A stretch of 64,000 nucleotides of DNA, taken from contig JAKSKX010000006.1 of NCBI GenBank assembly GCA_024401535.1, forward strand, positions 1 to 64,000, read 5' to 3'. Positions 5,239-56,697 of the stretch are shown piece by piece. Source of the stretch: Paludibacteraceae bacterium. GTDB taxonomy: Bacteria > Bacteroidota > Bacteroidia > Bacteroidales > Paludibacteraceae. The first letter of the stretch is position 1. Each line of letters opens with the position of its first letter. Both the position numbers and the translations under genes were made by a program. The notes under the pieces were generated by a model. The model was not told the origin of the DNA, did not search any database, and worked only from the letters and a program-made list of their open reading frames with translations.

Positions 5239-5256
5239 TATAAATTAGGATTGCCT

Positions 5257-26882: not shown

Positions 26883-29800
26883 ATGAATATAAAAAATAAA
26901 CTAATTGTTATCATGAACGAATTTTTACGAAAATTCTTGGATTGGATAACTATGCTTTTGCGTTGGCTATATGCTGCGCCTGGGGCAGTTGTCCAATGGC
27001 TGCATGATACCGGTACGGAAGATTCCGTTGGTATGGATGCAAGTCATGAGAGTGGAGGAGGCATTGCCTCCGGGTTGGTGAAGGGCCGGAGGCTCTTTGC
27101 CGAGTGTGTCACATCTGTCCGACAGAGGCTGAAATATGCTGCTGTTGGCTTGCTGCTGTTTGGTGCGGCGGGAACTGCTAGTGCGCAGACAGAGAACAAC
27201 CTTGATTTCCATAATAATTTGGAAGGTTGGCACATCTATATGGGTGCTGTCGAGTTCAAGGGTAAAACTGCTGCTAGTGATGCTCAAGGATGTGATACAT
27301 ACAATAAAGATCAGCTAGGTACCTCTACAACAAAGACTGGTGCTACAAAATCTTTCTATTTTCCTACAAATTTAAACAATAATTACTATTACTATCAATT
27401 AGGAACATCTACTATGACATTTAGCGATAAGGCTAGATGTAATTTACATTCTGCTCCTGGTGGTGTTACTTACAAGTCAGATACTGATAGAGATCGTGTT
27501 TATCTTTACGGAAAGATAGATAAAAATGATAACGCCACAGCAGGTTGGTGGAAATATTATGATAGTTATATAGCATGGGATAATAAGACGAGTAAATATC
27601 ACAGACCAGCTACTGTAACTTCTACCTCTTATCCTAGAGCTTATCCTCTTATGAAGGGTGATGCAAAATCATGTAGATTGGGTGCTGCTTCACATCATAA
27701 TGGATGGTCAAATGAGTTTCAAAATTCTAATAATACTGGACAGAATATTAAACACCGAGCTGCTGCAGAAAGGATGTCTTATGAGTTCGAGAAGCAGCCT
27801 GGTCAAACAACGGTTTTGATTCACTACCTTGGAGCTGCTATTTCTCCTGGTGGTTCACATTACTGTACTGGACCTAATGGTTTTGATATCTTTGGATGTT
27901 ATACTACTGCATCAAAGGCATCAAAGAGTATTGATGATGTTGATGAAGCAAAATCTGGAGAGAAGACAGTTGAAGATGGCTGGGTTCAAATTAACCAAGG
28001 TTGTGGATCAACTGCATCTTTTTCACCTTTTGATATGGTTTGTGCTTTTGATCACACTTCTTGTACTCATAGGCATAATTCGCAAACTACATGTACTTCA
28101 ACTGGTGTTCTAGACAATAATAATAATTCTGTTATTTTTTCTACTTCAACAAGTACTGGTCGTGCAACTTCCAAGAAAGGTTGGTCCACCTTGGAATTTG
28201 ATATTAGATCAATTCCAGAAGGTGCGCGTGTAGCTTTTGCATTTACAACTAATGACTGTAACTGGGGTGTAGGTGCCTCTGATGCAGGAGGACATTCCGC
28301 ATGGATGTATTTTACTGGTGAAGTGTTGGAGTCTTATTTGAATGTTAATTATTGTGGTGAGAATTTAACCGCAGAGGCTCCTGATGGCTATGCTGAATAT
28401 AGATGGTATAAGGAAGGAAGTAATAATCCAATTGTTACCACTATCTATGATGATGATGTTACTAGAGAAGGTCTTCAGTCTGATGGAAAATATCACTCTG
28501 GCAGAGCATACGAATTGCCCGCAGATTTTCGAGGAAGTTCTGTTTGGGGAAGTCAAGGTAAGATTATATGCAGAATGTACACTTCTGTCGAAAATCAAAC
28601 ATGTTATAATGAACTTGATAAACCATACGTTCAGAATGACATTTACATGAAGATTGACGCAGAGTATGCCTGTATAGACGAACCTCTTACTTTGATGATT
28701 TCTCCTAATAAGGAAAAGGGAAGTATCAATACATCAGAGAAGTTCAAGTATGTGTACATCAAGCTAAATGATGATCCTGCTGGTTTCTCTAGAAAGGATT
28801 GTAATAATGCTGGAGAACTTACTTATGTAATCCCTAAATTCGATAAAACATACAAGGTTGAATTGTATGCAGAAACGGACAATGGTTGTAGGTCAAATGT
28901 GCTTACTGAAACATTCATTCCTATGCCAAGGCCGGAAATAGCTTTGACAGCTAATCCTGTTTGTAAGTTCTCTGATGTTAAGGGTCTAATTACTATCAAT
29001 AATCATTCTGATGCATCTTTGTATAAAGATAATTCAAACGGTTATTTCTATAGCCATGGTTATGGTAGTGTTGTGAATTACACAATGAGCGTTAATGCTC
29101 TAGGTTTTGGTCAGACCTCAGATGTAAATTCAAATGTTAAGACTAGTTTTGAAGAAGGAGAGTTTAATGCTAATCGTCAGAACCAGTTTAATCTTGGTAT
29201 TTCCTATGACTATGATAACTCTAATCCTGACATAAATGTTACTGTTACAAGTACTAGAGGATGTGTTACTAAAAAGTCTGTACCTTTCGCATTTGATGCT
29301 ACACCAAAGCTTTCTGTGTTTGGTATGTTGGAAAGATATTCTACTCCGGGAGACAAGAATATCTCGCTAACATTATGTCCTAATGAGCAAATTTCGGGTG
29401 AGTTCTATTCTAATGAGCCTGGATGGTTTGTAGTTCAAAGAAAGAAAACAAACGATACAGACAAGAAAACGTGGATAATTCCTACTAAGTCAACATTTAC
29501 AACTTCTAGTTCAGGTGAAAAACGTTATTTCCCTAACTTTGCAAGTTCCAATGTTCCTGTAACTATGCTAGAGGATGGCTTTGCGATGATTGGAGACAAT
29601 GATTATATGTACGAGATTCGTGTATATAGTCAAGACCCTGCCATTGTTGATGTAGAAAACCAGTGTAGTGACTATTACTATATATATATAGGTCAACATC
29701 CTTCTAAGATTACAGTCACAACAGGTCCTGAGGTTTGTCCTGGTTCAAGTACTTGGTTGGAAATAAACAATGTGAAGGCTGGTACTCAAAAGCCATTGTT

Positions 29801-32800
29801 CCACCAGATTACTCCAGCAACATTAACTACACCGCTTGTTGATAATATTCTAGGTAATTATGATGTAACTGCAGTGAGTGGTTTCGACAATCGTTATACT
29901 ATTCCTGCAGTTAAGAGCCCTTCATATTATGAGGTAGAGGCTACGAATGAATTTGGATGCAAGGAGCGTGTGCCTGTTTCAAACTGGGGTTCACTTCCTG
30001 TTCCAGTTCTTTCGTATTCTGCTGTATTTGAAGGTACATCGACAAACGTAAATTATGTTTTTGTTCCAAATGCTGATGGTTCGCACACAGTTACGTTAGA
30101 TCCTCAGTGTGCTGGCAAAACTATTACTGTAAATATCAAGAATGACGGTAATTCTTTAGTTGCATTCGAAGTTTTTGATAATGGTAATCTTTACAAGTCA
30201 GGAGATGCTCAGTCTGGTAACTCTTTCAGCTTTGACTATACAATTCCTGAAACTACTTCGGAAGGATCGAGAACTTTCGATGTAAAGGTTTCTTCTACAG
30301 AAAGTGGAAAGGCTCTATGTGGATTTACTGATAAAGTAATTTTCAAGAGTTTGCCGACTACAACAATTAATTTTGTTGCAACTCCAAACACAGGCTTGAC
30401 TACTAATACAGTAGGTTTCCCTGAAAGTGAGGTCTCTTTGAACAAGTATTGTTCTGAACAAGAGTATTACATATATGCTCAGGCAAAGTATAATGTAAAG
30501 AATTCGGTTACTTTGGTTGATGAGCCTGTTCTTATTGCTGCGGACAAGATTTCGATGACTATCAACGGAGTTTCGGATAATGTTCACTCAACTACCCACA
30601 AGCAGGTTTATGAAAAGGCCAACAATTGGGATTCAAATGAAAGTCTATACTACATTAAGTATAACTTCAGGATTACTCCTTCTTCTTCAGATAAATTCTG
30701 TCCTGCTACTCGCGAAGAGAAAGTTTATATCTTGGAGAAACCTAAGGCTTCTTTCGCAAAACCTCTTTATGAGGCTTGTACAGGAAAAGATGTAGATGTA
30801 GTTCTAAACACTACAAGTACATTGCGTAATCTTGACTTCTCAATTGTTAAGGTTGACGGTAGTGATGTAGAAACTAAGGTTAATGATGTTAATACTGACA
30901 TTGTTCCTTCGTCTTCTTCTATTACTCAGAATGTCTCTATTCCAGATTTGTCTGACAATAGTTATAAATACTATGTAAAGGCAGAGTTTACAAATAATGG
31001 AGGATGTGCAAGTTCAGCTCTTACACAGTTAGGTGAGTTTGACACTCCTACATTTACTATCGTGCCTAAATTCGCAGAAGGTATTTATAAGGACAATGAG
31101 ATACCTACATTTGTTTCTGGTGCATCTAAATATTATATAGTATGTCCAGGTACAAAGTACTATCTTGATATTGAGAATACTTCTGCCGCTGGTGTTTCTT
31201 TAACTAATATTGAAGTTACTGACGGTACTGTAACAAATAGTACTAATGACATCGCGTCTGGCGGTCATGTTAAGAGTTCTGTTTATACTTCAGGTTCAAG
31301 CGAGAACGATCAGATAAATATTGAGGTTTCAGCTAAGTCTAATAAGGGTTGTCTTGCTGAGTCTCAGTCTGCAGTTATTCGCAGCGCATCTAAGCCAATG
31401 ATTACTTTGGCAGTAGAACCAGATCCTCAGTGTAAGACTGATGTAACGCCTACAGTTAACGCTTCTGTTGCTGTAACTCAGGATAACAAGTCTTACGCTG
31501 CTACTTATTCGGATTTGAATAGTGCGGTTAGCTTCGCTCCTAAAATCGAGTTGAACTCGCTAGCAAAGCCAATGCCTACTCCAACTTCAAATAACATTTA
31601 TGTTTTCAATAACGAGAGCATGAATGTTGGAACAAATCAAAGTATTACAGAGGAGAACAAGTTCTCTGCTAAGTATATTGATGCTTTGGGTTGTGAGAGT
31701 GACGTTGTATTTACAACTGCGACTGCTATAGGTACTCCTAACCACACAGTTTCTGTTGATAAGAACGTAGTTTGTGAGGGTGAGTCTAACAGTATTTATG
31801 TAACTGCATTCGGCGAATATGACTTTACACTTTATCGTGTTCTTGAGGGTTCCGAGACTTCTACTTCAGCCATTGACTATAATGGTGAGAAGCTTGTAGT
31901 ATTCAATGGAGCTACAAGAAAAGAGACTGCTTACTCAACTACAACAAAGCAGGCTGCATGTGAATTCGCTGATATCACATTCGCTTCAAATGGAAAGAAG
32001 AAGTTCTATGTTATGGCTTCTACTAAGGGTTCTTTGAAGTGTGATGTTTACAAGGAAGTTTCTTACGATGTAATTCCTGCTCCTACAGTTGATATCAAGG
32101 TTGTACGTGAGGATGGAGTTACAACTCTTGCTTCGGGAGAGTCGGTTTGTCCTGGTGAGAAATTGAAATTGTTTGTAAAGAATACTACTAATTACTCAGA
32201 TGGTACAGGTTTCATTACAACTTATACTATTGATGGTAATAAGTCAACAAATTCTGTTGATGACAACGAAAGTGTGAATGGTGTCACTATCATAGCACCT
32301 AATGCTGCAGGTAGTGTTACAATTCCAGTTGTTGCTACAAGAGAGAATACTTCTTGTTCATCTTCTGAATCATTCATGTTCCGTGTCGCTTCAACTCCTA
32401 GTCTAGAGATTAAATCTACTGCTTACTCGGAGAAGGAGGGCAAGACTATTATTTGTAAGGAAGATGACTCGAAAAGCACTTCAGCCCGTTGGGATGCTAC
32501 AGAAAGAGGTGCTACTTTGAGTGTTCCTTTCATGACTGGTTATACATACACATGGAGTACAAGTGATGTTAACGCTGTACTTGAGCCTTCTGCTACAAAT
32601 CCTAATGAGGCAAAGGTATATGCGTCAACTGGTACATGGTATGATGAGTACGAGGCTATAGTAACTTTGACTGTAAAGTCTAATGTCGGATGTTCGGTAT
32701 CTCTTGATCATAATGTTGTGACTCGCGACATTGTTAAGTTCAATTTCGAAGCGGTACCAAGTGAGGGTTGTGTAGGTGACAACATGATTAAGAGAATCAC

Positions 32801-35800
32801 TTTGCTGTCATCTCGTTCAGATAGCAAGTATTCTGCTGATAATAACGTCAATACTTCTTCTGTTCGTCCTCATGTTATCGGTGACAACACGATGATTGCT
32901 GAGGCTAGTTGGGATTCCTATTCTGCAAGAATTTACGAAACTTTCACTTCTGGTAAAGTTTGTAGAAAAGGAAATCCAAATATCAATGTTTATGTATATC
33001 CAGCTCCTACACTAGAGGTTTCAATGCTTGATATAGAGGGTCGCAGTGTAGATGCTGTTTGTCCTAATAACGAGTATTACCTAAATGTTAAGGTTGCTGA
33101 TTCTGATTTTACTACTAAGAAGTCTGGTTTCAAGAGAACATTGAAAGAGACTCAGTTCTTCAATATTACAATCGGAGGAGAGACTAAGCAGACTCAAGGC
33201 AAGAATGCTGTTAAGTTCGGACCATTCAAATCAACATCTGCAGTTAACCATGAGGTAACAGGTGCGTTGGTTCTAAATGGTGGAGCTAATCAGGGTTGTG
33301 CTTCTACTGTATATAAGGTTGCTAATGTTTATCAGATTCCAACTGTTAGATTGCAGGTTGCTGAGAACGCTACTGCTGATGGATACGGTAAGGGCGCTTA
33401 CTTATGTGTCGGTGATGGTCCAGAGGGTGAGACAAACGGTAAAGCTGTAATCAAGACTAGCTATACTTTTGATACGCAGATTAATGCTGCTAATAATATC
33501 AAGAGCATTATTTTCAACAACTTTACTCCAGTTTCTGCAGAAGCTTCTGCTTTGGATAATTTCACTGTCGAAGTTCAAGCTCGTGAGCAGAAGATTTCTG
33601 CTACTGTTATTGATAATAACGGATGTCAGTCGGAGGTGTCAAACGAGGTTTCAATTCTACCTTGTTTGCGTCCAGTTCCAAGTTTGTCTGATTTGAAGGC
33701 TTCTTGTGGAGATGCGGAAACAGAGATTCGTCTTAAGGATAATAATTCTGACAGACAGACTGTTGTTGATATGATGAACAACGCTGCTGTTTCTTATACT
33801 GTTTCTTATGAGAACATTTACGGTTCAAAGACAACCGTGTCTCGTTCAGGTGAGGATGTTAAGCAGGGTGATACATACAATCCTTACTTCCTATTGAAGT
33901 TGTCTAATGTTAAGGACCTTCCTGCAGGAACTCCTGAGTTTACTGCTGATGCCGTTAACAGATGTGCATCAGAGAATGGATTCTTTATTCCTGCAAATGG
34001 ATGTCGCGCTAAGGATAAGGCAACATACGAGTTCACTTCTTCTGTAGCTCCTGATATTGAGATATCTTTTGCCGATTATAACGGAGATCCTATTACTACT
34101 GTATGTCCTAACACATTCTTCAGAGTTATGTTGACTGATAAGAATGCTGTTGCTGGAAACGTATATAATAGTAACGAGGAGAAAGACGTAACATGTAAGG
34201 TGTCTTGGAATATTTCAGGTGTTGGACATGACGCTACTCTAGGTATCAATTCTATTGGAGGTCAGGTTACTAATTCATTTGATGTTCCTAATGGTTCGCC
34301 ATACAGCTCTTCTGCAAGTGAGATAGAGTTTAGTGTAGTGGCTGAAAATGCTTTAGGTTGTAGTAAGTTCTTCACAAAGAAACTTACAATTACTCCTACT
34401 CCTGTACTTGCAATTACTGGTGAGGGTACAAGATATGATGAGTCAACCAAGACAGTTTACATCTGTAACGGCGTAGATGCTAAGTTGAAGGTTACTTCTT
34501 ATTCACAGATTGCCAAGTACACTTGGTATGATGCATCTAATACTCCTTTGGTAACTGGTGCTGGTGCTAATGTTGAAGGAACAATTACTGAGTCAATAAA
34601 TGCAAATACTACAACTCTTCAATCAGAGTTTAAGGGTGCCCCTATCGGTGCATATACAGTTGATGCGGTTGATGTTAACGGATGTACTTCTGATCCAATT
34701 GGTATTTCAGTTGAGAATATTCAGATGCCTTCGTTCGTGGCAGTTACAGATCCTGCTATGGTATGTGGAGCCGAGCCTTCAAATGTCAAGATTGAAAGTG
34801 TTGGAGGAAGCTATGATCCTGCAGATATTGCAAAATACAATTATTTCTTGATCAGTAAGTTTGAAGCTCCTAGTGAGGGTGAAATTGTTTCCGATGGAGT
34901 TAAGAACATCAAGGACAATATCAAGTTCCGTACAAATTCTGATGGTGAGTATTATAAGCCAATACCTAACTATGAGGAAGGTCAACCTTACGGTGTTGAG
35001 TTGAGAGATAATTACGGCTGTGTAAGCTATGCAAATATCTCTGTTACTCCTGTTGACGGACCACTTATTGAGTGGGCTTTGTATAATGCTTCTACTAGTA
35101 AGTATGTTGCAGCTCATATTTATGAGAAGGAGTCTGACCTAGTTACTGTGAAGGTAGATGCAGCTCATAATCCTGTATTGATTGAAAATCCAACTCCTCA
35201 GGATTTGATGAAATATGGTCTTCCTGTAGGAAGTAAGGCTAATTTCTTCTATGATGACAAGGATAAGGATCAGGATTATCCTCAGTGGGGTTGGTTCTGT
35301 CCTGGAAATGTTTACTATATCTATGCTCGTAATGCAAGAGGTGGTGTGTACAATAATGGTGTATTATTGCAAAATTCTTCACCTCGTGATACTTTCTTCT
35401 GCTCAGTTGGTGGTGTGACTAAGGTAAGTGGTATCACTTATTCTTCTAAGTTGACAGAAGGAAACGGCCTTTATGATTACAACAAGGGAACAGGAACAAG
35501 ATGGTGTCGTTTGGATCATGGAATGGGACCTACTAAGAATACGCATTTCCCTGCTCCTAAGGGTGCTATTACAATCTCTGTTATAGATACTTCTTATTTC
35601 CCAGATCCGTCTTCGCCTACAGGATTTAGAAAGTGTATTTCATCTGAACCTATCGTAATTGATAGGCTTAGAACAGCACCAACAATTAAGGTTAGCAATT
35701 TGAACTACATCTGTGAGGGTGATTACGTTGAAATTTCTTTTGTTGGTAAGGCACCTTCAGGAACTCGTCTTGTTCCTATTGCCGGTGATGCTTGGGATAA

Positions 35801-47800: not shown

Positions 47801-50800
47801 GAATAAGCCATGTGTTAACACTAATGCTTACTTGGTCGCTACTGGTGCTGTTAGATATTCTTGGGATGGCGGTAATGGAAACGGTGAGGTTTATCAGCCA
47901 CTTGTTGAAGATACACCTTTCGACGTTACTGTAATTGGTTACGATAACTTAGGATGTTCTAATACAGCAAAGGTTACAGTAACTCCTACTACATTGCCAG
48001 AGTTCGAGGTTCAGAATGATGGAGAAACAATCTGTGAGGGTACAGGAATTGATTTGTACGGTAAGTCTAAGTTGTCAAATGAAGCTTATGATTTCAACTG
48101 GTTTGATCCAGTTCAGAATATCGAGGTTCTTGGTACTAATAGATTTAATACTCAGCCAGTTGTTTCTACAACTTACGAGGTGACTGCAATAAAGACTACA
48201 GCTCATGGTACTAAGTGTACTTCTAAGTTGTATCCAATTGTAAATGTTAATAAGATTCCTAAATTGATCATCCACGGTAGTTCTGAGGTTTGTGACGGTG
48301 GCACATACACATTTACTGTCGAGGGTGGTATGGATGGAAGCTATGTATGGGATAATGATAGAGACAAGAGTTCAACTACTTATTCCAAGACATTCAATTA
48401 CACTGGAAGTCCAGCTTATGTTCAGGTTCAGGGCTTTGATGGATTATGTGAGTCAGAGTCTGTTCGTAAGGAGATCTTAGTTCGTAAGAAACCAGATATC
48501 AAGCTTGATTACATGAATCAGGTTTGTGGTAATACGCCAGCCCATATCGAGGCTTCTTCTTCAACTCCTAATGTAACATTCTTGTGGAAGGAGCAGAATA
48601 TCAATGGTCCAATATTTGAACCTGTTGTTCAGCCTGCATATCAGTTGTTCCATGTAGTGGCAACAGATAACATTGGTTGTACTAACATTGATTCTGCAAG
48701 AATCGAGGTTGTTTCGGCTCCTAAGTTGTATTTGAGCGCTCAGCGTTCAGGTAAGCCTAGAGTTAACATTCCATTCGACTCTGTTTCTAAGAAGTTTATA
48801 GTTGATGTTTGTGAGGGCGAGGATTTGAACTTGAAGATGTCAGGAGCTTCTAACTATAAGTTTACTTCTGTTCCAGGCGATGTCCTTTCTGAAACTGATG
48901 AATACAACTATCATCCTCTAGGAAACGAGGGATTGGTTGTGACAGGATTCTTGACTGGTTGTAATAAGGAGGCTGATATCCTAATCAACCACAACAATGT
49001 TCCGACTCTATTCCTTGTAGGTGATACAACATCTTGTAAGGGTGACGATGTTGAATTCAAGGCAGCTGCTTCGGTTGCAACAAATGACCTTGAGTACAAC
49101 TGGACACTTCCTGAGTTCGTTGATATGTACGGTGTTGACTCGTTCATCGTTGATAACGAGATCGAGGTTATGGCGATGTATCCAATCGAGCAGTCTGACA
49201 AGAACTTGTACACTGTTACTGCAAGATCTAAGTCAACTGGATGTGAGACTAGTCAGGACTTCCATTTTGGATATGTTCCTTCTCCTGAGTTTGAGCCAAC
49301 TTATGAGTCTCGCGTTTGTGCTAATGCAGACGTAGAGTTCTATGTTACACCAAACGATCCTGATGCTACATACAAGTATCAGTGGAGAACAGGTAAGACA
49401 AGCCAGTTGAGAGACACATTCAAGACTCAGTTCCGTACACCAGGTTCGGAGAGAGTGATGGTAACTGCTACTGATGGAAGCTGTACAGTTTCTAAGCAGT
49501 TCGAGATTGATGTCATTCCTGCTCCTCAGCTTAAGGTCACAGCTCCTGCTGGACTTTCAAGAATCGGAGATACAGGTGCTTCATACATGTTGGAGATTTG
49601 TGAGAATGACCGCTTCTCGTTCGCAGTGTCTGATACGACAAGTTTCCCTAACTATGGTGGTACATTCGATTATACTTTGGTAGCTCCTGAGGAAATTGAA
49701 GGAATCAATTCAATCAATAGTATCGCAACTAAGGATGTAACTTATAAGTTCAAGGCTGTTAATGCTGATGGATGTTCAAGCCAGGCTTTGGTTTCATTGG
49801 CAATTAACAAGGCTCCTATCGCATCTAATACAGGTGGTGATACAACAACTATTTGTTACGGTGATTCTGTTATCTTCAATATTGTTGGTACTAACATCAA
49901 GTCTTATGAGTGGTTGCCAACATCTAAGGGAGATACAAATGCTACTAAGATTGTTAAGCCAAGTCAGTCAACAGACTACTATGTAAATGTAACTGGCTTC
50001 AACGGATGTCGTTCACAGAAGCAGTTGAGAGTTAAGGTTAACTCAATACCTCAGATGGCATTCGCTCTTGATAACCATGTTCCTACTAGTGATGACATGG
50101 TATGTTATGGAAATGACTTCACTTTGAATGTTAAACCAGCTAAGGCTGAGGATAGCTACTCATTCCGTTGGGATAACATGTCAACTGACAGTTACATCAG
50201 TCAGAGAGCTCAGGCTGAGAAGAAGTTCTATGTAACAGCTCTTGATTCTAACAACTGTTCTAATAGAGATTCGTTCACAGTTAGAGTTCAGCCATTGCCA
50301 GTTCTTTCTTATGACGGAGAAACTTCGGTATGTAGGGGTTCTGCTTTGGTTCTAACAGGAGCTAATGCTTCTAACTACTGGTGGACTCGTAGTCAGGATA
50401 CACTTTCTGATAAGCCTCGCGTAAGAGTTGATGCTCTTGAATCATCTGGTACATTGACATTGTACGGTGAGCAGAACGGTTGTATCGGCAAGTTGGATGT
50501 TGATGTAGATGTTAAGGAAACTCCTGATATGTACGTTAACTCTGCTTCAGCAGGTACAGTGTTCAAGGATACAGTGAAGCTTTGTGAGGGTGCTGAGAAC
50601 TTGTCTATCGAGGTTCTTACAATCAATGGTACAAATGGTCTTGAGTATTCTTGGGATAATGGTACTATTGGTAATACATTGACTATTGACAATGTAACTC
50701 GTAACAAGGATTACATAGTAACTGTTCATGATCCATCAGGAGCATTCGTTTGTGATGGTCACTTGAAGGTTCCAGTTCGCGTGTTGCCTAAGCCAGCCAT

Positions 50801-53687
50801 CTTCATCGATGGTCCTAAGGAGCAGTGTGCTGATGCTTATGCTACTCTTGTACCTCATGGATTGAAGCCTTCTGACTTCGACAACTACCAGTGGAAGGAT
50901 TACGGTAATAACGATACTCTTCGCGCTCTAATTACAGAGACAGAGACATTCGAGGTTACTGGTAGCAATTCACTTACTGGTTGTGAGGCTAAAACAACTT
51001 GGACTGTAACAAAGATCAATCCTCCTCTAGTTGAGATTGAAATTGACGGTGACAATGGCGAGGGTGCTGTTTGTGAGGGTAACCAGTTTACTCTAAAGGC
51101 TAAGAACGCTTATACTTACGTATGGAATGATTCACTTCAGACTAAGGAGCAGAATCTAGGTCAGATTGCTAATACAGCAACTTGGTACTCAGTTGAGGGT
51201 ACTGATTCTAGAGGATGTAAGGGTACTGCTACAATATTTGTAGATGTACTTCCTAAGCCAGTTCTTTGGACATATGGTAACAGACCTATCTGTCTTGGTG
51301 ATACTCTATCTCTAGAGGCTGTAGGTGCTGACAAGTACGAGTGGACAATGGGAGTTGTATCTGGTGACAAGAACCAGTACATGACAGCTGTTCCTAAGTA
51401 CAGCACAGACTTCTATTTGACAGGTTATGACAAGAACGGATGTTCTAATGTAATCAAGGTTGAGACTACAGTACGTGATACTCCGAATGTAGTTATTACT
51501 TCGCCTGACAATACACAGTATGTATGTGAGGGTGATGTTGCCAAGTTGAAGGCTTCTGGTGCTGAGAACTATAAGTGGATCGAGGGTACTCAGAGCCAGA
51601 GTGATGAGATCACTCAGTTGATTGACAAGGACAATACAGTCTTCGTAGTCGAGGGTACTGATGCTAACAGATGTAAGGGTAGAGCTTCTTACAAGGTTAA
51701 GATGCAGGCAGCTCCTGTATTGACAATTACAGGTAAGACTGATATTTGCGAGGGTGATAACGTTCAGCTTTCAGTAGCTGGTGTTGGTGCCAAGACATTC
51801 GAGTGGGGTGACCCTCATTCATCTGTACCAACTAAGCCAGGAACTAAGATGATCGACAAACCTAAGCATGATACTCTATATTATGTATCTGGAACTTCAA
51901 TGTACGGATGTAAGACTACAGAGACTATTCCAGTCATAGTTAATTCGGTTCCTTCAATCAACATCTACGGTCCTGACACTATTTGTCAGGGTGGTGTTGC
52001 TCTTCTTGAGGTTAGCGGTGCTAAGACTTACGAGTGGAGTACTGGTGAGACAACTACTTCTATCGAGGTTAACCCTCGTAACAAGGCTACTTACCAGGTT
52101 ACAGGTACTGACGAGAACGGATGTTCAAGTATTGATCAGATTAGCATTCAGGTTATCGAGAAGCCAGAGGTATTTATCGAGGCTTCAAGCATGACAGTTT
52201 GTGAAGGTTCTTCTGTAGAGTTGAAGGCTAAGTACGATGAAAGTGCTCAGTTCAAGTCATTCAACTGGAAGTCTAATTCAGGTAATGCAGGTCAGGGCGA
52301 GATTATCACTCCTTCTATTTCGAAGGCTGATACATTCTACTTGATTGCTAAGAATGCTATCTGTACAGCCGAGTACTCAATTCCAATCGGAGTTTATCCA
52401 ACTCCAGTGCTTTCATTCACTGGAAATGACGTGGTTTGTCAGGATACTGCACACGCTTCACTTCAGTTGATTGCTCAGGGTGCAAGTACTTATGAGTGGA
52501 TTACTGAGGCTAACGATACAATCCGCAGCCCATTCTTCACAGCGGTTCCTAAGGAGCCTACTACAATGTACTTGAGCCTACATGGTATGGCTAACGGATG
52601 TGACGCTCAGATTACTGTTCCTGTCATAGTTAACCCTTCTCCTTCTCTTGTTACTAAGATTGTTGGTGGCGAGGGTACAGACGCCACAAACGGTTATGTA
52701 TGTGTCGGAAGCGATTACGAGGTAGTTGCAAGCGGTGCTGACACTTACGTTTGGACACGCGGTAACGGTATCGATACAGTAAGCTACACAAGTGTAATTA
52801 CTGGTGAGAACATGACTACTCCATTGACATTCCAGGTTATTGGTACAAATGCTATGGGATGTACTTCAGTGAAGTCAGTTAACATTCCTCTTCAGAGATT
52901 GCCTAAGCTAAAGATCGAGACAAGCCGCAAGTCAGTTTGTCCTGAGCAGGGTGATTCTATCGAATTCACAGTTAGCGGTGCCAAGACTTACGATTGGACT
53001 TCTTATCCAGCTGTAAGCGACATCGATAACGAGCCTAACAGAGATAACTTCAAGGCTCAGATCTTCGACGAGACTGTAGTTTACGTCTCAGGTAAGGATG
53101 AGTACGGATGTATCTCTAGCGATTCGGTTAAGATTACTAACTATGTCCTTGATTCAATCAAGTATGTAATCAATCCAACTCTAATTGATGATGATTACCG
53201 TAAGGTTAGCTTCTCTGGTCGTGTGCCAAGCAGCGAGATTTACGATGTTGATTGGACATGGGAGATTTCTGATGGTGGTGTAGAGAAGGGCAAGTCCGCT
53301 ACTCATACATTCCAGGTTCTTGAGGATTCATTCCTTGTAACAGTTAAGGCTGTTGACTGGAACGGATGTAAGTATGAGGATCAGACTCATATCTACAAGT
53401 GGAAGAAGGCTTGGGTTCCAGATGCATTTACTCCAGACGAGAACGGTTTGAACGATAAGTTCAAGTTCGAGGGTGGTGATTGGATCTCAGAGTTCCACTT
53501 CATAATCTACAACCGTCTAGGTGAAATCGTATTCGAGGGTAACAGCCTTCGTGACGCTTGGGATGGAACATTCAACGGTAAGCCTTGTCCTGCAGGTGTT
53601 TACGGTTGGTCAAGTTCATACAAGTCAACTGTAGGTGATTACACTAAGAGCGGTGAGGAAAAAGGTAAAGTTACACTTATTAGATAA
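26883..53687 (+). CDS. Giant SprB-like T9SS-secreted surface adhesin, 8,934 residues
   Basis: One unbroken frame of 26.8 kb. The N-terminus is unusual: residues 1-84 (aromatic amphipathic stretch LDWITMLLRWLY, then a Gly/Ser-rich linker and basic KGRR...VRQRLK) precede a signal-peptide core (85-98) with a cut predicted after Ala101 (TASAQ). Residues about 103-480 form a His/Cys-rich domain with lectin-like strands (WSTLEFDIRSIPEG, HSAWMYFTGEV). From about 485 to 8,830 runs an array of Ig/PKD-like modules, each with a C-x-G motif (CEGE, CPGS, CQGG), a Y.W strand and a second Cys in a NGC-type turn. The last 95 residues are a type B T9SS sorting domain: WVPDAFTPDENGLNDKF, YNRLGEIVFEG, WDGTFNGKPCPAGVYGW. 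This matches SprB-type adhesins that move on or decorate Flavobacteriia cells; SprB itself is about 6,500 residues. The PorP/SprF partner follows 16 bp later. The ligand is unknown. Confidence 0.9.
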   Translation: MNIKNKLIVIMNEFLRKFLDWITMLLRWLYAAPGAVVQWLHDTGTEDSVGMDASHESGGGIASGLVKGRRLFAECVTSVRQRLKYAAVGLLLFGAAGTASAQTENNLDFHNNLEGWHIYMGAVEFKGKTAASDAQGCDTYNKDQLGTSTTKTGATKSFYFPTNLNNNYYYYQLGTSTMTFSDKARCNLHSAPGGVTYKSDTDRDRVYLYGKIDKNDNATAGWWKYYDSYIAWDNKTSKYHRPATVTSTSYPRAYPLMKGDAKSCRLGAASHHNGWSNEFQNSNNTGQNIKHRAAAERMSYEFEKQPGQTTVLIHYLGAAISPGGSHYCTGPNGFDIFGCYTTASKASKSIDDVDEAKSGEKTVEDGWVQINQGCGSTASFSPFDMVCAFDHTSCTHRHNSQTTCTSTGVLDNNNNSVIFSTSTSTGRATSKKGWSTLEFDIRSIPEGARVAFAFTTNDCNWGVGASDAGGHSAWMYFTGEVLESYLNVNYCGENLTAEAPDGYAEYRWYKEGSNNPIVTTIYDDDVTREGLQSDGKYHSGRAYELPADFRGSSVWGSQGKIICRMYTSVENQTCYNELDKPYVQNDIYMKIDAEYACIDEPLTLMISPNKEKGSINTSEKFKYVYIKLNDDPAGFSRKDCNNAGELTYVIPKFDKTYKVELYAETDNGCRSNVLTETFIPMPRPEIALTANPVCKFSDVKGLITINNHSDASLYKDNSNGYFYSHGYGSVVNYTMSVNALGFGQTSDVNSNVKTSFEEGEFNANRQNQFNLGISYDYDNSNPDINVTVTSTRGCVTKKSVPFAFDATPKLSVFGMLERYSTPGDKNISLTLCPNEQISGEFYSNEPGWFVVQRKKTNDTDKKTWIIPTKSTFTTSSSGEKRYFPNFASSNVPVTMLEDGFAMIGDNDYMYEIRVYSQDPAIVDVENQCSDYYYIYIGQHPSKITVTTGPEVCPGSSTWLEINNVKAGTQKPLFHQITPATLTTPLVDNILGNYDVTAVSGFDNRYTIPAVKSPSYYEVEATNEFGCKERVPVSNWGSLPVPVLSYSAVFEGTSTNVNYVFVPNADGSHTVTLDPQCAGKTITVNIKNDGNSLVAFEVFDNGNLYKSGDAQSGNSFSFDYTIPETTSEGSRTFDVKVSSTESGKALCGFTDKVIFKSLPTTTINFVATPNTGLTTNTVGFPESEVSLNKYCSEQEYYIYAQAKYNVKNSVTLVDEPVLIAADKISMTINGVSDNVHSTTHKQVYEKANNWDSNESLYYIKYNFRITPSSSDKFCPATREEKVYILEKPKASFAKPLYEACTGKDVDVVLNTTSTLRNLDFSIVKVDGSDVETKVNDVNTDIVPSSSSITQNVSIPDLSDNSYKYYVKAEFTNNGGCASSALTQLGEFDTPTFTIVPKFAEGIYKDNEIPTFVSGASKYYIVCPGTKYYLDIENTSAAGVSLTNIEVTDGTVTNSTNDIASGGHVKSSVYTSGSSENDQINIEVSAKSNKGCLAESQSAVIRSASKPMITLAVEPDPQCKTDVTPTVNASVAVTQDNKSYAATYSDLNSAVSFAPKIELNSLAKPMPTPTSNNIYVFNNESMNVGTNQSITEENKFSAKYIDALGCESDVVFTTATAIGTPNHTVSVDKNVVCEGESNSIYVTAFGEYDFTLYRVLEGSETSTSAIDYNGEKLVVFNGATRKETAYSTTTKQAACEFADITFASNGKKKFYVMASTKGSLKCDVYKEVSYDVIPAPTVDIKVVREDGVTTLASGESVCPGEKLKLFVKNTTNYSDGTGFITTYTIDGNKSTNSVDDNESVNGVTIIAPNAAGSVTIPVVATRENTSCSSSESFMFRVASTPSLEIKSTAYSEKEGKTIICKEDDSKSTSARWDATERGATLSVPFMTGYTYTWSTSDVNAVLEPSATNPNEAKVYASTGTWYDEYEAIVTLTVKSNVGCSVSLDHNVVTRDIVKFNFEAVPSEGCVGDNMIKRITLLSSRSDSKYSADNNVNTSSVRPHVIGDNTMIAEASWDSYSARIYETFTSGKVCRKGNPNINVYVYPAPTLEVSMLDIEGRSVDAVCPNNEYYLNVKVADSDFTTKKSGFKRTLKETQFFNITIGGETKQTQGKNAVKFGPFKSTSAVNHEVTGALVLNGGANQGCASTVYKVANVYQIPTVRLQVAENATADGYGKGAYLCVGDGPEGETNGKAVIKTSYTFDTQINAANNIKSIIFNNFTPVSAEASALDNFTVEVQAREQKISATVIDNNGCQSEVSNEVSILPCLRPVPSLSDLKASCGDAETEIRLKDNNSDRQTVVDMMNNAAVSYTVSYENIYGSKTTVSRSGEDVKQGDTYNPYFLLKLSNVKDLPAGTPEFTADAVNRCASENGFFIPANGCRAKDKATYEFTSSVAPDIEISFADYNGDPITTVCPNTFFRVMLTDKNAVAGNVYNSNEEKDVTCKVSWNISGVGHDATLGINSIGGQVTNSFDVPNGSPYSSSASEIEFSVVAENALGCSKFFTKKLTITPTPVLAITGEGTRYDESTKTVYICNGVDAKLKVTSYSQIAKYTWYDASNTPLVTGAGANVEGTITESINANTTTLQSEFKGAPIGAYTVDAVDVNGCTSDPIGISVENIQMPSFVAVTDPAMVCGAEPSNVKIESVGGSYDPADIAKYNYFLISKFEAPSEGEIVSDGVKNIKDNIKFRTNSDGEYYKPIPNYEEGQPYGVELRDNYGCVSYANISVTPVDGPLIEWALYNASTSKYVAAHIYEKESDLVTVKVDAAHNPVLIENPTPQDLMKYGLPVGSKANFFYDDKDKDQDYPQWGWFCPGNVYYIYARNARGGVYNNGVLLQNSSPRDTFFCSVGGVTKVSGITYSSKLTEGNGLYDYNKGTGTRWCRLDHGMGPTKNTHFPAPKGAITISVIDTSYFPDPSSPTGFRKCISSEPIVIDRLRTAPTIKVSNLNYICEGDYVEISFVGKAPSGTRLVPIAGDAWDNGNVHYPVEYEAIGNEVYSAAELATKYDQSHNNDSYRFTVHQKTASGEIDKSEKGTRFYLTTNTYFTGYVKDEYGCAVSANGGWIYPYDKPEFKSGHEKACEESEIRITVQDGSTACNKWSGYHWDEYLWDGTNRIDKNGNIVNEHGKVVDASGNILYKSKVDGTAITDVANAELDANGDPVEFPKNPLKEGYQSGSFTGDINGVAHTFKYFNSSKFPHDQTRIYDVYSWISKKNNVDGSTVTCYSDTLQELVHPDELPDIECYFAKKSDPSTKVTGFCMNEEVVLVTKLKNASFFASDADMKEHTVVFSANDKNKHLNFEKSIDATATTADNIDYAQYTFVAPDSAGQYIVSVRDFVTNTNLSCPREIAVQFTVYGKPTVDIDAVDGNKDPDQPNVVYLCDGDKVNLRANTAKTDVEFHWYDGNRVEDIVDAPDYKLNIVEITSPTSRLAKVKDKGTGCWSDYSNQIDIKLAPVPAFEFLGNQAFVCEDKSTVTLEISAMKDGKYSFSEVNDQKVQINNIGESAKSITYTKSLSSFDASGISPVYVAVMNTDVNSISYGCKSYGRYDYAKATSPVLDVKQFVYKDNQYVEKVPCEGEQFYFGVHDDVANYSSGTVRLSRQAGSSNGYLDVSLAPQNRTYKLTTSDGTTVNSTISSTTRNIATVEGKTYYITSESYEAVNSGYNVNVDGEAVYSDATCESSTTWLSSTKRRPTPSLGADRATYICGKNNGTVIGDNQSEVKLLANATVDASNGNYAKKYIFTNKYTNVAETKTLADATAAIGGAEFVVSNILSDVTYTVKVEDANGCQSEESDPITISYVALPTFIATGNTLCEGKSEVKLTIAPTAGTVDEFNYAMGAYAGASVDKSNISAGVWPTNETNKDELTWVNSSFLTADQIGSASALTYQFAGLVAGKNDKIAACAQLKTPSIGQFAGCKGEIKCVDVNVNNKPEIKAVVKQNNRDVTNSAVCPNTDYIIEVSNVADFGTCSQETIYLLNLDGTVKASQIVNAGVPAQFVMTSNTSAEQFRTKIVTSCGCEIEGSVLVNVFANPTASLTYNNTLIGANFGDIEICSNAQAELGVSATASQIHNAANKIAKIYWYVGGVQDSYNQDLTDPSNIKRSGLTDGEYYVIAEDANGCKSAPSEKAVIKVLPEPAVDFTVADNFCSGSDVEVEIVSPQADYTYQLSYNDGTNDVTFAFVDGKSTIRKFKKAGTTTLNVVAKDKKLCSSAVSTYDIHVYEKPDMTVKFFRNSEELTRNSAVCNGEELTYTITKNAGGTVNVIIGSTPGGDVDIHDAGMSGNVVMGSSNQTFNFKFSNDEVAMCESSFDFPVRIAEAPSFQLTSSAMKDPNGYSVLCTNATENIKISAPVGIVVTDWGNLATTETTVQTEAETNRQFIEVKPAAGHYIVKGKNTSGCVGTAEFDVVNAAVPEVSEVRMYDYSDNTKEIVGGVVCDGTQVTITANANIGTPSVSDDDIRSYEWTGTSANQPSFNTQLVNDNVEKSVGGYDSKVYNFGVSVTSKYGCKSASFPYNVTVDKMPDIKFSGAVGNEYSACFGTPIVVEPNVGTVGFVFDFTNPSGSEVYESGVTKITRNLSQAGASEVVRVVAKGNVCTKVGTVNLKVKALPTITLTDPTTGNVGLVTCAPTTSERGSGNDKFKFEARVDGHKAVESIIDPNDATNTINFPETVNQSSATINRGDASQDYSIITASKPDVTTTYRYTASNGECSASKEFTVTIQPKPEMSTPMLYRKAEDGSLQLVTDKTFCEGDEVTAVVSAQVDGGNGTVKNISFGSASTDPNAHVQYPSASVANDQANFSFVATPRTGTQENVISFSSSSVDGNCESDRQDITIVVNPKEPLTIEGGNGHIVYHCGGAEYELSATEGFKDYVWYDSDHSTILPSDGYKCKVVPPVTGMKKIFCVASEGSTGCKTEASVDIAAITVPTVRLSIENSLTNKSVSGYGESVELVACAQVDGNGNTVSVENQKITLTATATSNTVDIKGYKWGDETMGSSNSLVFENPAIGDQTKTVTVIYTFNGSEECKAEKKFKIYGSPMPTVPTFSAQLSDGTGGWSNVSSICENTPIRLSANSDVNGGTRGEDVSYSWDPTGSQQEYINVNAHDGDEYTVTVTTNNGCSVSNTYLIETATSKFTVNNLDICAGSEAEIKPMKAAGDVITFDYYVGNDHKHTGESYKDIFGATTRVKVVGTNAIGGCESVKYVTVNTYGVPTVGVSDNVEGCEGAPVNLNAVKQEGVTYIWQGAFTGDSYEVPASLDVVDVQAKKSYTVGGVTDAVVCFSPIKTVAINRTSTPTVNIIASTDNVCEGEETRFTATGGNATSFNWRYGYLNTIDDTISYTNIKTTTTDANNPDLIIPKSEFVGVGQLYVKAVAKGTKCSAEGYRVISVSKKPVIKLASYTRASMTSPITPTEEEGAFVAKTCSDEEINLIFDGAKTYEIDGVPYNGTWSNTTTVNGPIDNNLLKVSGKDVYGCPAKDILVKVVTYPQPTLVDVPTNLTFCELDNSPINISAKAVDKAGSKFTISYSTASNPDAVKCTDVNECEIGGSTSNIITPNSADGKIIVAAISPAGCTVSQDVVIDVVPQPVALVDQNMKVCPNTEFELKTTHENGVPDADVYAKEWYRVNADNTTSFIGAGQNVKQSITERTHYQLKYKRSTYPMCEATPIDFYVDVFGDVVLSDASVDASGTPFQREICTSSGPTPLSIGASGINLETIKWYLGANNQGTEIEPDAASRNTINVEPKTKSWYYVEAKTVSGCTVGHEFTVDVAEAPQIVLYATKADGTSLIGGKICRGENIIIKTNLLSAVEPDNYYWFGAAATSQDYHVIGNVDNRVDVVLEADKGNCRTKVEQSFDVVERPIISLESDNSTYCEGESVEFRANTNDDGVTIDDYRINWFASEQDANNKKNVISTFNTLTQVVKGDATGNYELFATVYDPRYGCYAENPASISVKSVNVGEPALTYLGRVCNGASAEIKLATIDKSNEFSSTEYKMFIKPNTPGSAESTVTSATGTGWGYPISAVTDNTRYDYYLSRVVDGKECKSKTYSATILTEAKPSINVLLDGTLCAGNTVKLTASSNGVPNEKVKWVANGKNVYEYDLPGSNNVENRSLDVEAEKSFDYTLYEQGQAKPMTDGVCKNTYTYKMTVNPKPVITIVEDENNNRKCPGDEIAFDVKTQTEGVTKVDWIGATPKAYDAANDKFINEHSTVVIPQAGGNFTISAVATNGVCSSDLASFIVESGVTPTITLKTKADDDKNIAAVDVKPGSTFYFCEDDSRDLVASTEPSNSLVTVKGAGIPETGMGTNDGVFPVSAEGLYEVIATTAGQCSSSMNFIVSHKKKPEIISQIGSAAWQVLPNGQTHYCWDENNPDDITITVGQDPNAFYAFKSAGQPDPTSDKYKQESNQLKLYGHPGAEQMDVPNQTVDYTILAYKTYTIDGSDLTCYNETVVPIPVKVSPSVLIDGKNVFCAGTQNKVTLTAKLGSDVGDVSYKWSGFWEVNNKNTEVVDFNMVRTGDQTATVTVTDENQCSGKASKTITILPAPVLQIKNAKSNFCEGTTQEFVAECKNCSDTYGITKYYWQDSEGNLINGEDGKSDGSVLLSKSDVYSYLAYILLPDLDEDGNERLCWSSTYTQAVQTTPKPHFSITGDTAICPSDGAVFRASGDAGYSFTWTMNDNLIRKDENTNTSSISEAINASNTMTPIKLLVENSSGCQSDTTLKVINKGVPYPDVVYDQEACENGISSFKIVDAAAYTNIVWQCGSQVGVGSKFDCSVGSSDVKVTLTVQSADPANACTNQLEYPVRVIKHQQLQYEGSKVACEGEPVELVVNRADLPGVAATGDNFRWFTPNGDTLKSGNQNHATYKPTVSGQYSVVFQNGVCEEKMNFDLQIKNKPVIYLSYKDTICANSPVVIIANVPSATPSNPVEYYWQSDYNTQNQSNSFTDSPMMDSKYQLRVVDVNTECYTDTTGIMVAIRPNPSVRIDMDKSENKPCVNTNAYLVATGAVRYSWDGGNGNGEVYQPLVEDTPFDVTVIGYDNLGCSNTAKVTVTPTTLPEFEVQNDGETICEGTGIDLYGKSKLSNEAYDFNWFDPVQNIEVLGTNRFNTQPVVSTTYEVTAIKTTAHGTKCTSKLYPIVNVNKIPKLIIHGSSEVCDGGTYTFTVEGGMDGSYVWDNDRDKSSTTYSKTFNYTGSPAYVQVQGFDGLCESESVRKEILVRKKPDIKLDYMNQVCGNTPAHIEASSSTPNVTFLWKEQNINGPIFEPVVQPAYQLFHVVATDNIGCTNIDSARIEVVSAPKLYLSAQRSGKPRVNIPFDSVSKKFIVDVCEGEDLNLKMSGASNYKFTSVPGDVLSETDEYNYHPLGNEGLVVTGFLTGCNKEADILINHNNVPTLFLVGDTTSCKGDDVEFKAAASVATNDLEYNWTLPEFVDMYGVDSFIVDNEIEVMAMYPIEQSDKNLYTVTARSKSTGCETSQDFHFGYVPSPEFEPTYESRVCANADVEFYVTPNDPDATYKYQWRTGKTSQLRDTFKTQFRTPGSERVMVTATDGSCTVSKQFEIDVIPAPQLKVTAPAGLSRIGDTGASYMLEICENDRFSFAVSDTTSFPNYGGTFDYTLVAPEEIEGINSINSIATKDVTYKFKAVNADGCSSQALVSLAINKAPIASNTGGDTTTICYGDSVIFNIVGTNIKSYEWLPTSKGDTNATKIVKPSQSTDYYVNVTGFNGCRSQKQLRVKVNSIPQMAFALDNHVPTSDDMVCYGNDFTLNVKPAKAEDSYSFRWDNMSTDSYISQRAQAEKKFYVTALDSNNCSNRDSFTVRVQPLPVLSYDGETSVCRGSALVLTGANASNYWWTRSQDTLSDKPRVRVDALESSGTLTLYGEQNGCIGKLDVDVDVKETPDMYVNSASAGTVFKDTVKLCEGAENLSIEVLTINGTNGLEYSWDNGTIGNTLTIDNVTRNKDYIVTVHDPSGAFVCDGHLKVPVRVLPKPAIFIDGPKEQCADAYATLVPHGLKPSDFDNYQWKDYGNNDTLRALITETETFEVTGSNSLTGCEAKTTWTVTKINPPLVEIEIDGDNGEGAVCEGNQFTLKAKNAYTYVWNDSLQTKEQNLGQIANTATWYSVEGTDSRGCKGTATIFVDVLPKPVLWTYGNRPICLGDTLSLEAVGADKYEWTMGVVSGDKNQYMTAVPKYSTDFYLTGYDKNGCSNVIKVETTVRDTPNVVITSPDNTQYVCEGDVAKLKASGAENYKWIEGTQSQSDEITQLIDKDNTVFVVEGTDANRCKGRASYKVKMQAAPVLTITGKTDICEGDNVQLSVAGVGAKTFEWGDPHSSVPTKPGTKMIDKPKHDTLYYVSGTSMYGCKTTETIPVIVNSVPSINIYGPDTICQGGVALLEVSGAKTYEWSTGETTTSIEVNPRNKATYQVTGTDENGCSSIDQISIQVIEKPEVFIEASSMTVCEGSSVELKAKYDESAQFKSFNWKSNSGNAGQGEIITPSISKADTFYLIAKNAICTAEYSIPIGVYPTPVLSFTGNDVVCQDTAHASLQLIAQGASTYEWITEANDTIRSPFFTAVPKEPTTMYLSLHGMANGCDAQITVPVIVNPSPSLVTKIVGGEGTDATNGYVCVGSDYEVVASGADTYVWTRGNGIDTVSYTSVITGENMTTPLTFQVIGTNAMGCTSVKSVNIPLQRLPKLKIETSRKSVCPEQGDSIEFTVSGAKTYDWTSYPAVSDIDNEPNRDNFKAQIFDETVVYVSGKDEYGCISSDSVKITNYVLDSIKYVINPTLIDDDYRKVSFSGRVPSSEIYDVDWTWEISDGGVEKGKSATHTFQVLEDSFLVTVKAVDWNGCKYEDQTHIYKWKKAWVPDAFTPDENGLNDKFKFEGGDWISEFHFIIYNRLGEIVFEGNSLRDAWDGTFNGKPCPAGVYGWSSSYKSTVGDYTKSGEEKGKVTLIR
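28335..53400 (+). repeat. Array of Cys-containing Ig/PKD-like modules inside the adhesin
   Basis: Module spacing was measured between the Cys codons of successive C-x-G-type motifs. Near the N-terminus the codons at 29376, 29736 and 30108 are 120 and 124 codons apart, and 31773 to 32148 is 125. Near the C-terminus the codons at 51525, 51747, 51984, 52200 and 52437 are 74, 79, 72 and 79 apart. The modules are therefore longer and more varied at the start and short and regular at the end. They are diverged in DNA sequence; I saw no long exact nucleotide repeats. A total of roughly 80-100 modules is an estimate from length. Confidence 0.7.
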
Positions 53688-53703: not shown

Positions 53704-54696
53704 ATGAAAAAGTTAAGTGCATTTCTAATGGCTGCGTCTATGTCTTTCGTGGCTGCGGCTCAGGATATTGACTATCAGTTGACAGGTCATTCCACTTCTC
53801 CATTTGCATTAAATCCAAGTTCTGTAGGCGAGGCAAACGCCTACAGAGTTGGACTTAACTATCGCATGCAGTGGCCTACACTTAAGAATGAGTATAGGAC
53901 ATTCCGTGCGTCTTATGACCAGAATTTCTTCAAGCTTGTCAGCTCAATCGGTGCGCATTATGTGTACGATGGACAGGCAAAGGATTTCAAGAGCCATGAG
54001 ATTGGAGTAACTTATGCGCACAATGTTCGTGTGGTTGATGGACATTATGTTAGACTAGGACTTACCGCTGCCATGTTCGTCAAGAAACTAGGCGAGGATA
54101 TCGTTTTCGGAGATCAGTGGCAGAATGGTTCTATTGCTGACAACAGCCTTGAGCAGGATAATATGCAGGATACTCAGGTGTTCCCTGATTTCTCTTTCGG
54201 CGCACAGTATGTGTGGGAAAACCGATTGAGCGCAGGTGCCGCTATCTATCATATTGCTGCTCCAACATACGGATTTGTTGATGACGATGCTAATCAGCTT
54301 AACAGACGATATTCGTTCCATGTGCGTTATCTTCACAACCTTGAGTCTTCAGCCGGTCTTTGGGGAAACAGAGGAAAGGTTGAGAATTATGTGATGGGAA
54401 CTTTGGCATACCAACATCAGGGAGAGTACAACGTGGCAAATGTCAATGTCGGTGCGTTTGTCTCTCATTTGATGCTAGGAGTTGCATATCGCCATGACTT
54501 CCGCAGAGAGGTTATTGGTAAGCTTAACACAGTGTCTTTCATGATCGGAGGTAACTATAAGGGACTTCAGGCATACTATACTTACGACTTGTTTACTTCA
54601 CAGAAGTCAAATGGTTCGTGGTCGCATGAATTCTCGATTGTTTACGTGTTCGTCAAGAAGCACTTCCGTTATTCATGTCCTATTGTTTACTGGTAA
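53704..54696 (+). CDS. PorP/SprF-family outer-membrane protein
   Basis: A 330-residue outer-membrane beta-barrel protein with a signal peptide (MKKLSAFLMAASMSFVAAA). The start of the mature part, DIDYQLTGHSTSPFALNPSSVGEANAY-like, with NP(S/A).VG, is the PorP/SprF hallmark (about residues 20-45). Alternating strands follow, ending in an aromatic C-terminus (SCPIVYW). SprF proteins are specifically needed to secrete or anchor the SprB-type adhesin encoded beside them, through the type B sorting domain. The gene begins 16 bp after the adhesin stop with GGAGGG upstream, and a strong terminator follows, so the two form one transcription unit. Confidence 0.9.
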   Translation: MKKLSAFLMAASMSFVAAAQDIDYQLTGHSTSPFALNPSSVGEANAYRVGLNYRMQWPTLKNEYRTFRASYDQNFFKLVSSIGAHYVYDGQAKDFKSHEIGVTYAHNVRVVDGHYVRLGLTAAMFVKKLGEDIVFGDQWQNGSIADNSLEQDNMQDTQVFPDFSFGAQYVWENRLSAGAAIYHIAAPTYGFVDDDANQLNRRYSFHVRYLHNLESSAGLWGNRGKVENYVMGTLAYQHQGEYNVANVNVGAFVSHLMLGVAYRHDFRREVIGKLNTVSFMIGGNYKGLQAYYTYDLFTSQKSNGSWSHEFSIVYVFVKKHFRYSCPIVYW

Positions 54697-56639: not shown

Positions 56640-56697
56640 CACCAGCTATTGTATAAATTGGTTCAATAGTATTCCTATATTTCTGATTTTGAAGAAT

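Follow-up and report, generated by a model that had tools for sequence, protein, structure and literature searches.

The subject of this study is a giant gene and its downstream neighbour in a 64,000-nucleotide stretch of DNA (the window, positions 1 to 64,000 of contig JAKSKX010000006.1, assembly GCA_024401535.1) from a Paludibacteraceae bacterium. The source assembly is 2.96 Mb in 69 contigs and 91.5% complete. It belongs to the genus Ca. Scybalocola (GTDB UBA1723, Paludibacteraceae), which has been described from diverse mammalian guts. An initial annotation of the window had reported one uninterrupted 26.8-kb frame of 8,934 residues, and the frame was confirmed at 26883..53687 with no ambiguous base (N). 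A gene for a PorP/SprF carrier of the type IX secretion system (T9SS), the partner named in that annotation, starts 16 bases past the stop codon of the giant. The features of the two genes are as follows.

26883..53687, + strand: giant type B T9SS substrate; ATG start, 8,934 residues, uninterrupted; calculated mass about 0.96 MDa without residues 1-102
26883..27119, + strand: probably translated N-terminal extension, residues 1-79, in front of the signal peptide (7-species alignment, codon analysis)
26916..27008, + strand: conserved segment of the extension with a predicted amphipathic helix, residues 12-42 (dN/dS, hydrophobic moment)
27120..27185, + strand: predicted Sec signal peptide in the strict sense, at about residues 80-101 (by inspection; cleavage expected before Q102)
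27186..28661, + strand: N-terminal domain with no recognised fold, residues 102-593, the expected distal end
28662..53390, + strand: array of about 75 immunoglobulin (Ig)-like modules, residues 594-8836, with two fixed cysteine positions per module
30483..33182, + strand: most variable stretch, residues 1201-2100, in two of three close pairs of relatives
53205..53375, + strand: PKD-like domain adjoining the sorting domain, residues 8775-8831 (PF18911, 32.5 bits, cut-off 27)
53415..53684, + strand: T9SS type B C-terminal sorting domain (TIGR04131, PF13585)
53704..54696, + strand: PorP/SprF carrier of the giant (TIGR03519, 144.2 bits, cut-off 90.55; PF11751)
54670..54696, + strand: C-terminal tail of the carrier, Y-S-C-P-I-V-Y-W-stop, holding the only cysteine of the window carrier

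The type B sorting domain proposed by the initial annotation was recovered. The last 90 residues of the giant match TIGR04131 with 39.9 bits in a scan of the last third of the protein and with 47.8 bits in the genome search (cut-off 35), and Pfam CHU_C PF13585 with 49.9 bits (cut-off 27). The codon usage of the giant matches that of eight neighbouring genes (r = 0.88). Tandem Repeats Finder (TRF) reported no tandem repeats in its DNA, and thus there is no sign of a recent repeat expansion. Judging from the sorting domain, the carrier gene, and the T9SS genes of the genome, the giant is a real and well conserved T9SS type B substrate. It is likely to be a secreted, carrier-anchored adhesive fibre of this class, which would extend the class of T9SS giant adhesins to a mammalian gut family of Bacteroidales.

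The first 700 residues of the giant were searched against 150 genomes of the family. Homologues longer than 5,000 residues were found: the same genus has five more open frames of 9,021, 8,867, 8,878, 8,877, and 8,872 codons, which give complete and uninterrupted sister giants of 9,016, 8,862, 8,873, 8,872, and 8,867 residues from the start codon. The frame of a sixth relative (G117) leaves the contig end after 2,160 residues, and it was excluded from all full-length comparisons. The five sister giants are 77-87% identical to each other, and the window protein is 35% identical to them. Each is directly followed by a carrier gene, and their upstream neighbours are unlike those of the window. In three close pairs of species (G068/G085, G019/G048, and G048/G099), dN/dS is between 0.01 and 0.49 in every 300-residue window of the protein. 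Since it stays below 0.5 in all of these windows in the three pairs, the entire length of the giant is, by this codon measure, kept by purifying selection. An artefact of assembly or frameshift was ruled out by the five further complete frames and by this selection.

Conservation is uneven along the protein. In comparison with G048 and G068, the last 1,134 residues are best conserved (46-68% identity per window, elsewhere at most 41%), as expected for an anchored end. Identity in residues 1201-2100 falls to 54-65% for G068/G085 and to 51-66% for G019/G048, pairs in which other windows are up to 99-100% identical; this stretch is not especially variable in G048/G099 (82-95%). Diversifying selection in residues 1201-2100 was considered and is not supported, as dN/dS is below 0.5 while dS along the giant swings from 0.06 to 1.44 between two close species. 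Rather, this swing points to mosaic recombination, and the alleles of the giant look mosaic.

The order of the modules was compared between the window protein and three of the sister species (G048, G019, and G068) at a domain E-value of 0.5, where the window protein has 75 modules and the G048 protein has 78. Between these two proteins, 52 of the 54 reciprocal best module pairs are collinear, a number reached by none of 5,000 shuffles. From residue about 3064 to the end, all 46 pairs lie at one offset. Thus, no net gain or loss of modules has occurred over 59 modules, and the two proteins differ by three detected modules in the N-terminal third. The corresponding numbers of collinear pairs are 47 of 50 for G019 and 48 of 52 for G068, and the sister giants G048 and G099 share 77 collinear pairs among 78 modules. 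In contrast, only 9-10 of 18-19 reciprocal best pairs are collinear between the window protein and giants of three other genera; the shuffle mean is about 6 and 15-98 of 5,000 shuffles reach the observed value, so this collinearity is weak. Within the genus, module order is nearly fixed: in a protein of about 9,000 residues, the order and number of modules have hardly changed at 35% sequence identity.

The very long module array announced by the initial annotation was borne out, with matches to Ig_7 PF19081 in the C-terminal part of the array. A purpose-built module hidden Markov model (HMM) detected 72-77 modules per giant at a domain E-value of 0.05, 0-2 in reversed copies (n=6), and 0 in shuffled copies (n=6). 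At an E-value of 1, the numbers are 77-80 for the giants, 6-10 for reversed copies, and 0-1 for shuffled ones; since such hits also occur in reversed copies, the weakest hits are uncertain as modules. When the 75 modules of the window protein are aligned, one cysteine column has cysteine in 66 of its 67 filled cells and the other in all 70; exactly two cysteines occur in 57 modules. Across six sequences, 174 of the 201 cysteines of the window protein are invariant, despite its 35% identity to the other five. It is likely that the cysteine pair of most modules forms one disulfide. An AlphaFold model of residues 1280-1840 has a predicted local distance difference test score (pLDDT) of 61 overall, mostly 70-88 over the first 230 residues. 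In the top 50 rows of a Foldseek search, this model is matched with complement components, cobra venom factor, and macroglobulin-like proteins at a root-mean-square deviation near 50 A, as a generic chain of Ig-like domains would be. At about 4 nm per Ig-like module, 75 modules would form a fibre of about 0.3 micrometre. Scaling from SprB of Flavobacterium johnsoniae, with a mass of 669 kDa (PMC9143113) and a length of about 200 nm (PMC12635249), gives about 0.29 micrometre. N-terminal to the array, no match to residues 102-593 in Pfam, NCBIfam, or the PDB sequences reached significance, and the AlphaFold model of this domain (pLDDT 37) is too poor for use.

A probable signal peptide, as claimed by the initial annotation, is seen by inspection, but it does not lie at the very start of the protein. 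In all seven aligned rows, the n-, h-, and c-regions are visible by eye at residues 80-101, after 79 residues of a conserved extension that the annotation had missed, as it had missed the carrier tail cysteine putatively able to pair with GldK. Among the seven aligned species, 46 of the first 123 positions are invariant. The hydrophobic moment over residues 12-29 is 0.65-0.72 in six of six sequences, and dN/dS of codons 12-42 is 0.16-0.25 in all six pairs computed, followed by a variable linker at residues 43-64 (0.29-1.47). The sole length change inside residues 1-102 is one whole codon in one species. Is the extension really translated? The alternative is that the true start is the in-frame TTG at codon 65, which would give an ordinary 37-residue signal peptide. 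This TTG is kept in all seven species, but so are the ATGs at codons 1, 11, and 24. Because selection acts on codons 12-42, the translated extension is favoured, and the single whole-codon length change also speaks against the TTG start, which I regard as quite unlikely. Residues 1-79 are thus probably translated.

The extension was found in seven of nine genomes of the genus; the two that gave no extension match in the N-terminal search, G110 and G125, are 78% and 64% complete. Among 393 genomes sampled across the order, only the genome of the window itself has it, and a pattern scan of a collection of named species found six loci, all within those same genomes of the genus. In a search of its own genome with the first 700 residues of the giant, no other gene matched in the extension part, and the one Pfam family listed for the first 3,000 residues, Ago_hook, scored below the cut-off. 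The extended signal peptide region (ESPR) of type V secretion proteins is likewise a conserved segment before an ordinary Sec signal on very large surface proteins; it has some 25 residues and has been proposed to slow or route Sec export. The extension of the giant, of about 80 residues on a T9SS cargo, is likened to it by description only. Among 20 of the 570 papers matched by a literature search, no title points to an extension of this kind before the signal peptide of a T9SS protein. In the giant, the signal peptide of a very large T9SS cargo would be preceded by a conserved extension.

The carrier gene directly follows eight of the nine giants of at least 6,000 residues whose downstream side was examined (the window giant, its five sisters, and those of G005 and G063). 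The tail YSCP[IV][VI]YW is present in seven of seven aligned giant carriers and also in the G063 carrier, so that the tail cysteine is found in all eight; the five sister carriers have one additional cysteine near the N-terminus. The DNA pattern for Y[SP]CP[IMV][IMV]YW-stop has 35 sites in 26 of the 150 family genomes and 5 of the 33 genera, and the backward pattern has none. The YSCP type accounts for nine of the 35 sites, eight of which adjoin a giant; the remaining one is in G037. In a phylogenetic tree, twelve tail-motif carriers group in a single clade that excludes the six other PorPs of the window genome (support 100/99, with a long-branch warning). The search of the carrier against PDB sequences found no relative (best E 0.11). 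In the window genome (C43:5485-10444) and in G063 (C19:27918-33453), there is a second type B-like gene with its own YPCP carrier; in G063, this second gene starts about 2 kb beyond the carrier of the giant. Another PorP of the window genome (C23:48758-49741) ends with FCKTQHFCR; two of its last eight residues are cysteines, which makes it a possible further tail-linked carrier.

To which partner could the tail cysteine bind? In F. johnsoniae, the tail cysteine of SprF, the carrier of SprB, is bonded to GldK Cys343, and Cys356 of Porphyromonas gingivalis PorK is the residue that bonds PorG (PMC12635249). Disulfide bonding of a carrier to the moving track was found for SprF, which has a Cys-X-Cys tail (PMC12635249). 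The window genome has a SprA (2272.8 bits) and a GldK (576 bits) clustered with a PorP and GldL. Its GldK Cys349 aligns with PorK Cys356 (counted by eye on the alignment), and this cysteine, in the motif GCFL, is present in all seven GldK loci examined; the other two genomes of the genus gave no GldK above the cut-off. A T9SS component lies inside the window.

9271..11604, + strand: PorZ (NF052228, 501 bits, cut-off 260)

The genome also has a GldJ homologue. GldJ is the best-matching model for this protein, with 401.3 bits (397.3 in the family-wide search), under the cut-off of 458.2, and the match covers positions 19-552 of the 559 positions of the model. Matches to GldJ with an E-value of at most 1e-50 were found in 135 of the 150 family genomes, none above the cut-off, and in none of 14 controls. 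Those reaching model position 550 score 339-419 bits; those ending at positions 331-438 score 203-332 bits and may be other relatives. Thus, a track protein is probably present in the genome. GldB (below the cut-off, eight of nine) and GldH (nine of nine) were dropped as gliding markers, as both also match in Bacteroides ihuae.

With SprB and SprF of F. johnsoniae, the window pair shares the type B sorting domain, a cognate PorP/SprF carrier, and the build of a giant modular fibre, and the giant is longer than SprB, as the initial annotation had stated. That annotation had called it SprB-like, which does not hold in the narrow sense. The giant lacks the SprB repeat PF13573, whose three matches in the genome (E-value at most 0.01) are all in an 11,291-codon open frame on another contig (C12), and a single cysteine stands in its carrier tail where SprF has Cys-X-Cys; membership in SprB was rejected on these grounds. 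There is no gene in the 16-base gap between the giant and its carrier, while in F. johnsoniae sprC and sprD lie between sprB and the carrier gene, all in one operon; the neighbours were not searched with sprC and sprD models. The giant has a long extension before its signal peptide, and the N-terminus of SprB is outside this comparison. In P. gingivalis, the type B substrate PG1035 is held by a PorP protein in the PG1035-PorP-PorE system (PMC9143113), as proposed here for the giant. Type B substrates need PorP/SprF carriers for secretion, and both SprB and PG1035 have been found carrier-bound (PMC9143113, PMC12618676).

From these features I infer the following order of export, disulfides, length, adhesion, and GldK bond. 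The extension, with its amphipathic helix and loose linker, may tune the targeting or the pace of Sec export of the 0.96-MDa chain. After cleavage of the signal peptide, the C-terminal type B domain would be the signal by which the chain is recognised and passed across the outer membrane through SprA/Sov. A fibre of roughly 0.3 micrometre would then form as the approximately 75 Ig-like modules fold, each closed, in most cases, by one disulfide. The C-terminal domain would remain bound to the neighbouring carrier, and the N-terminal domain and outer modules would form a binding end that points outward. Adhesion would fit the class and build of the protein. Finally, a disulfide may link the tail cysteine of the carrier to the one conserved in GldK, and the T9SS motor could then pull or move the fibre. 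This bond is a testable possibility: a carrier clade with one conserved tail cysteine occurs in genomes that keep the partner cysteine of GldK and a GldJ homologue, and specific residues are now open to testing. The complete proposal, that the YSCP/YPCP..YW carriers of Paludibacteraceae are locked to GldK by a disulfide, that the motor drives the fibre of about 75 modules, and that the extension of about 80 residues with its amphipathic helix is a new type of extended signal peptide, is unlikely to be true in all its parts.

Several observations weigh against the reading as a carrier-anchored adhesive fibre, with or without a link to the motor. Substituting either of the two SprF cysteines abolished gliding (PMC12635249), and the window carrier has only one. 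The YPCP type makes up 26 of the 35 tail-motif carriers, and the four that were read (C43 of the window genome, G005, G063, and G074) follow proteins of 1,318-1,630 residues; thus, the tail cysteine is not special to giants. The 8,338-residue giant of G074 has a MutS2-like gene downstream and no carrier beside it, which speaks against giants and carriers being invariably paired. No ligand-binding domain was recognised in the giant, and the named relatives are all metagenome-assembled genomes. In F. johnsoniae, loss of the last eight residues of GldJ stops swarming (PMC12239597), and the GldJ of the window genome, besides scoring below its cut-off, lacks model positions 553-559; the other GldJ tails seen end alike.

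How the fibre would be used was weighed among three readings. About an even chance can be given to a static fibre, anchored by its carrier only, for attachment to plant particles, mucus, or other microbes. It fits the origin of the genus from mammalian guts, and in an ectosymbiont of a termite flagellate, a member of the Bacteroidales presumed to be non-motile, T9SS proteins with Ig domains have been interpreted as adhesins (PMC12483993); however, it leaves the conserved carrier tail cysteine and the GldJ homologue without a role. These two find a role if the giant is a gliding adhesin whose carrier is disulfide-bonded to the GldJ-GldK-GldN track, so that, like SprB, the fibre travels along the cell. 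The near-full-length GldJ homologue, absent from the controls, and the conserved GldK cysteine argue for this, as does the oral microbiota, where GldJ was found in three genera versus the T9SS core in seven (PMC11705866). The listed GldJ matches of the five tail-motif genera are all full length (385-419 bits), but the link is not exclusive, as full-length GldJ also occurs in genera that lack the tail motif (g3, g16, g22, g23, and g29). The single tail cysteine, the score and short end of GldJ, and the uninformative GldB and GldH matches also count against it, and among the papers listed by literature searches none deals with gliding in this genus. I rate gliding as rather unlikely. The initial annotation had suggested that the bacterium may be a non-glider; given the SprA, GldK, GldL, and GldJ homologue of the genome, this is unproven.

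A third reading, a grappling-hook fibre that holds prey or partner cells, is suggested by GhpA of Aureispira sp. CCB-QB1 (5,898 residues; PDB 9flp and fragments), which like the giant has a long array of Ig-like modules. Aureispira belongs to another class of Bacteroidota. GhpA is the best solved sequence match to the last 1,434 residues of the giant, and its residues 5816-5880 weakly match the sorting-domain end (20 bits). In a VIA-align 2 comparison with residues 1280-1840, GhpA fragments rank first, within the tie range of other Ig-like chains; GhpA is absent from the top 50 Foldseek rows for the same residues. In its N-terminal part, the giant showed no sequence relation to GhpA (phmmer found no match to residues 1-1400), it is 50% longer, and there is no evidence for hooks in it. 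This reading is very unlikely, and a carrier-anchored adhesive fibre, whether static or moved, is preferred.

The initial annotation had ranked the giant among the larger bacterial genes. Its size holds, but it is not the longest of its own genome, and a record length was ruled out: C12:112496-146305 holds an 11,269-codon frame (11,291 codons as an open frame) with a HYR domain, and its type B end is weak (27.8 bits). Giants of 8,338, 8,090, and 6,028 residues occur in other genera of the family, and proteins longer than 5,000 residues are known from many bacteria (PMC11573180). Thus, the window giant is one of several in the family and not a lone record. In G074 (C8:37328-72917), two giants of 8,338 and 3,362 residues are consecutive, with the MutS2-like gene after the first; in the 8,338-residue giant, the module HMM made for the window protein detects 93 modules. 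On the contig of the window, 0.7 kb past its end (C56:64724-76666), there is a 3,980-residue HYR-domain protein with no adjoining PorP match; its type B end scores 38.3 bits in the genome search and 31.9 by hmmscan (cut-off 35).

Other genes of the window were also noted. A BspA-type leucine-rich repeat protein is encoded at 177-1649, and a protein with a Polysaccharide lyase family 14 domain and a type A T9SS sorting tail at 1953-3056. Directly upstream of PorZ, 5251-9252 encodes a hybrid two-component sensor-regulator of 1,333 residues. Downstream of the carrier, the product of 56689-58926 has four LysM stretches and a periplasmic binding-protein-like domain.
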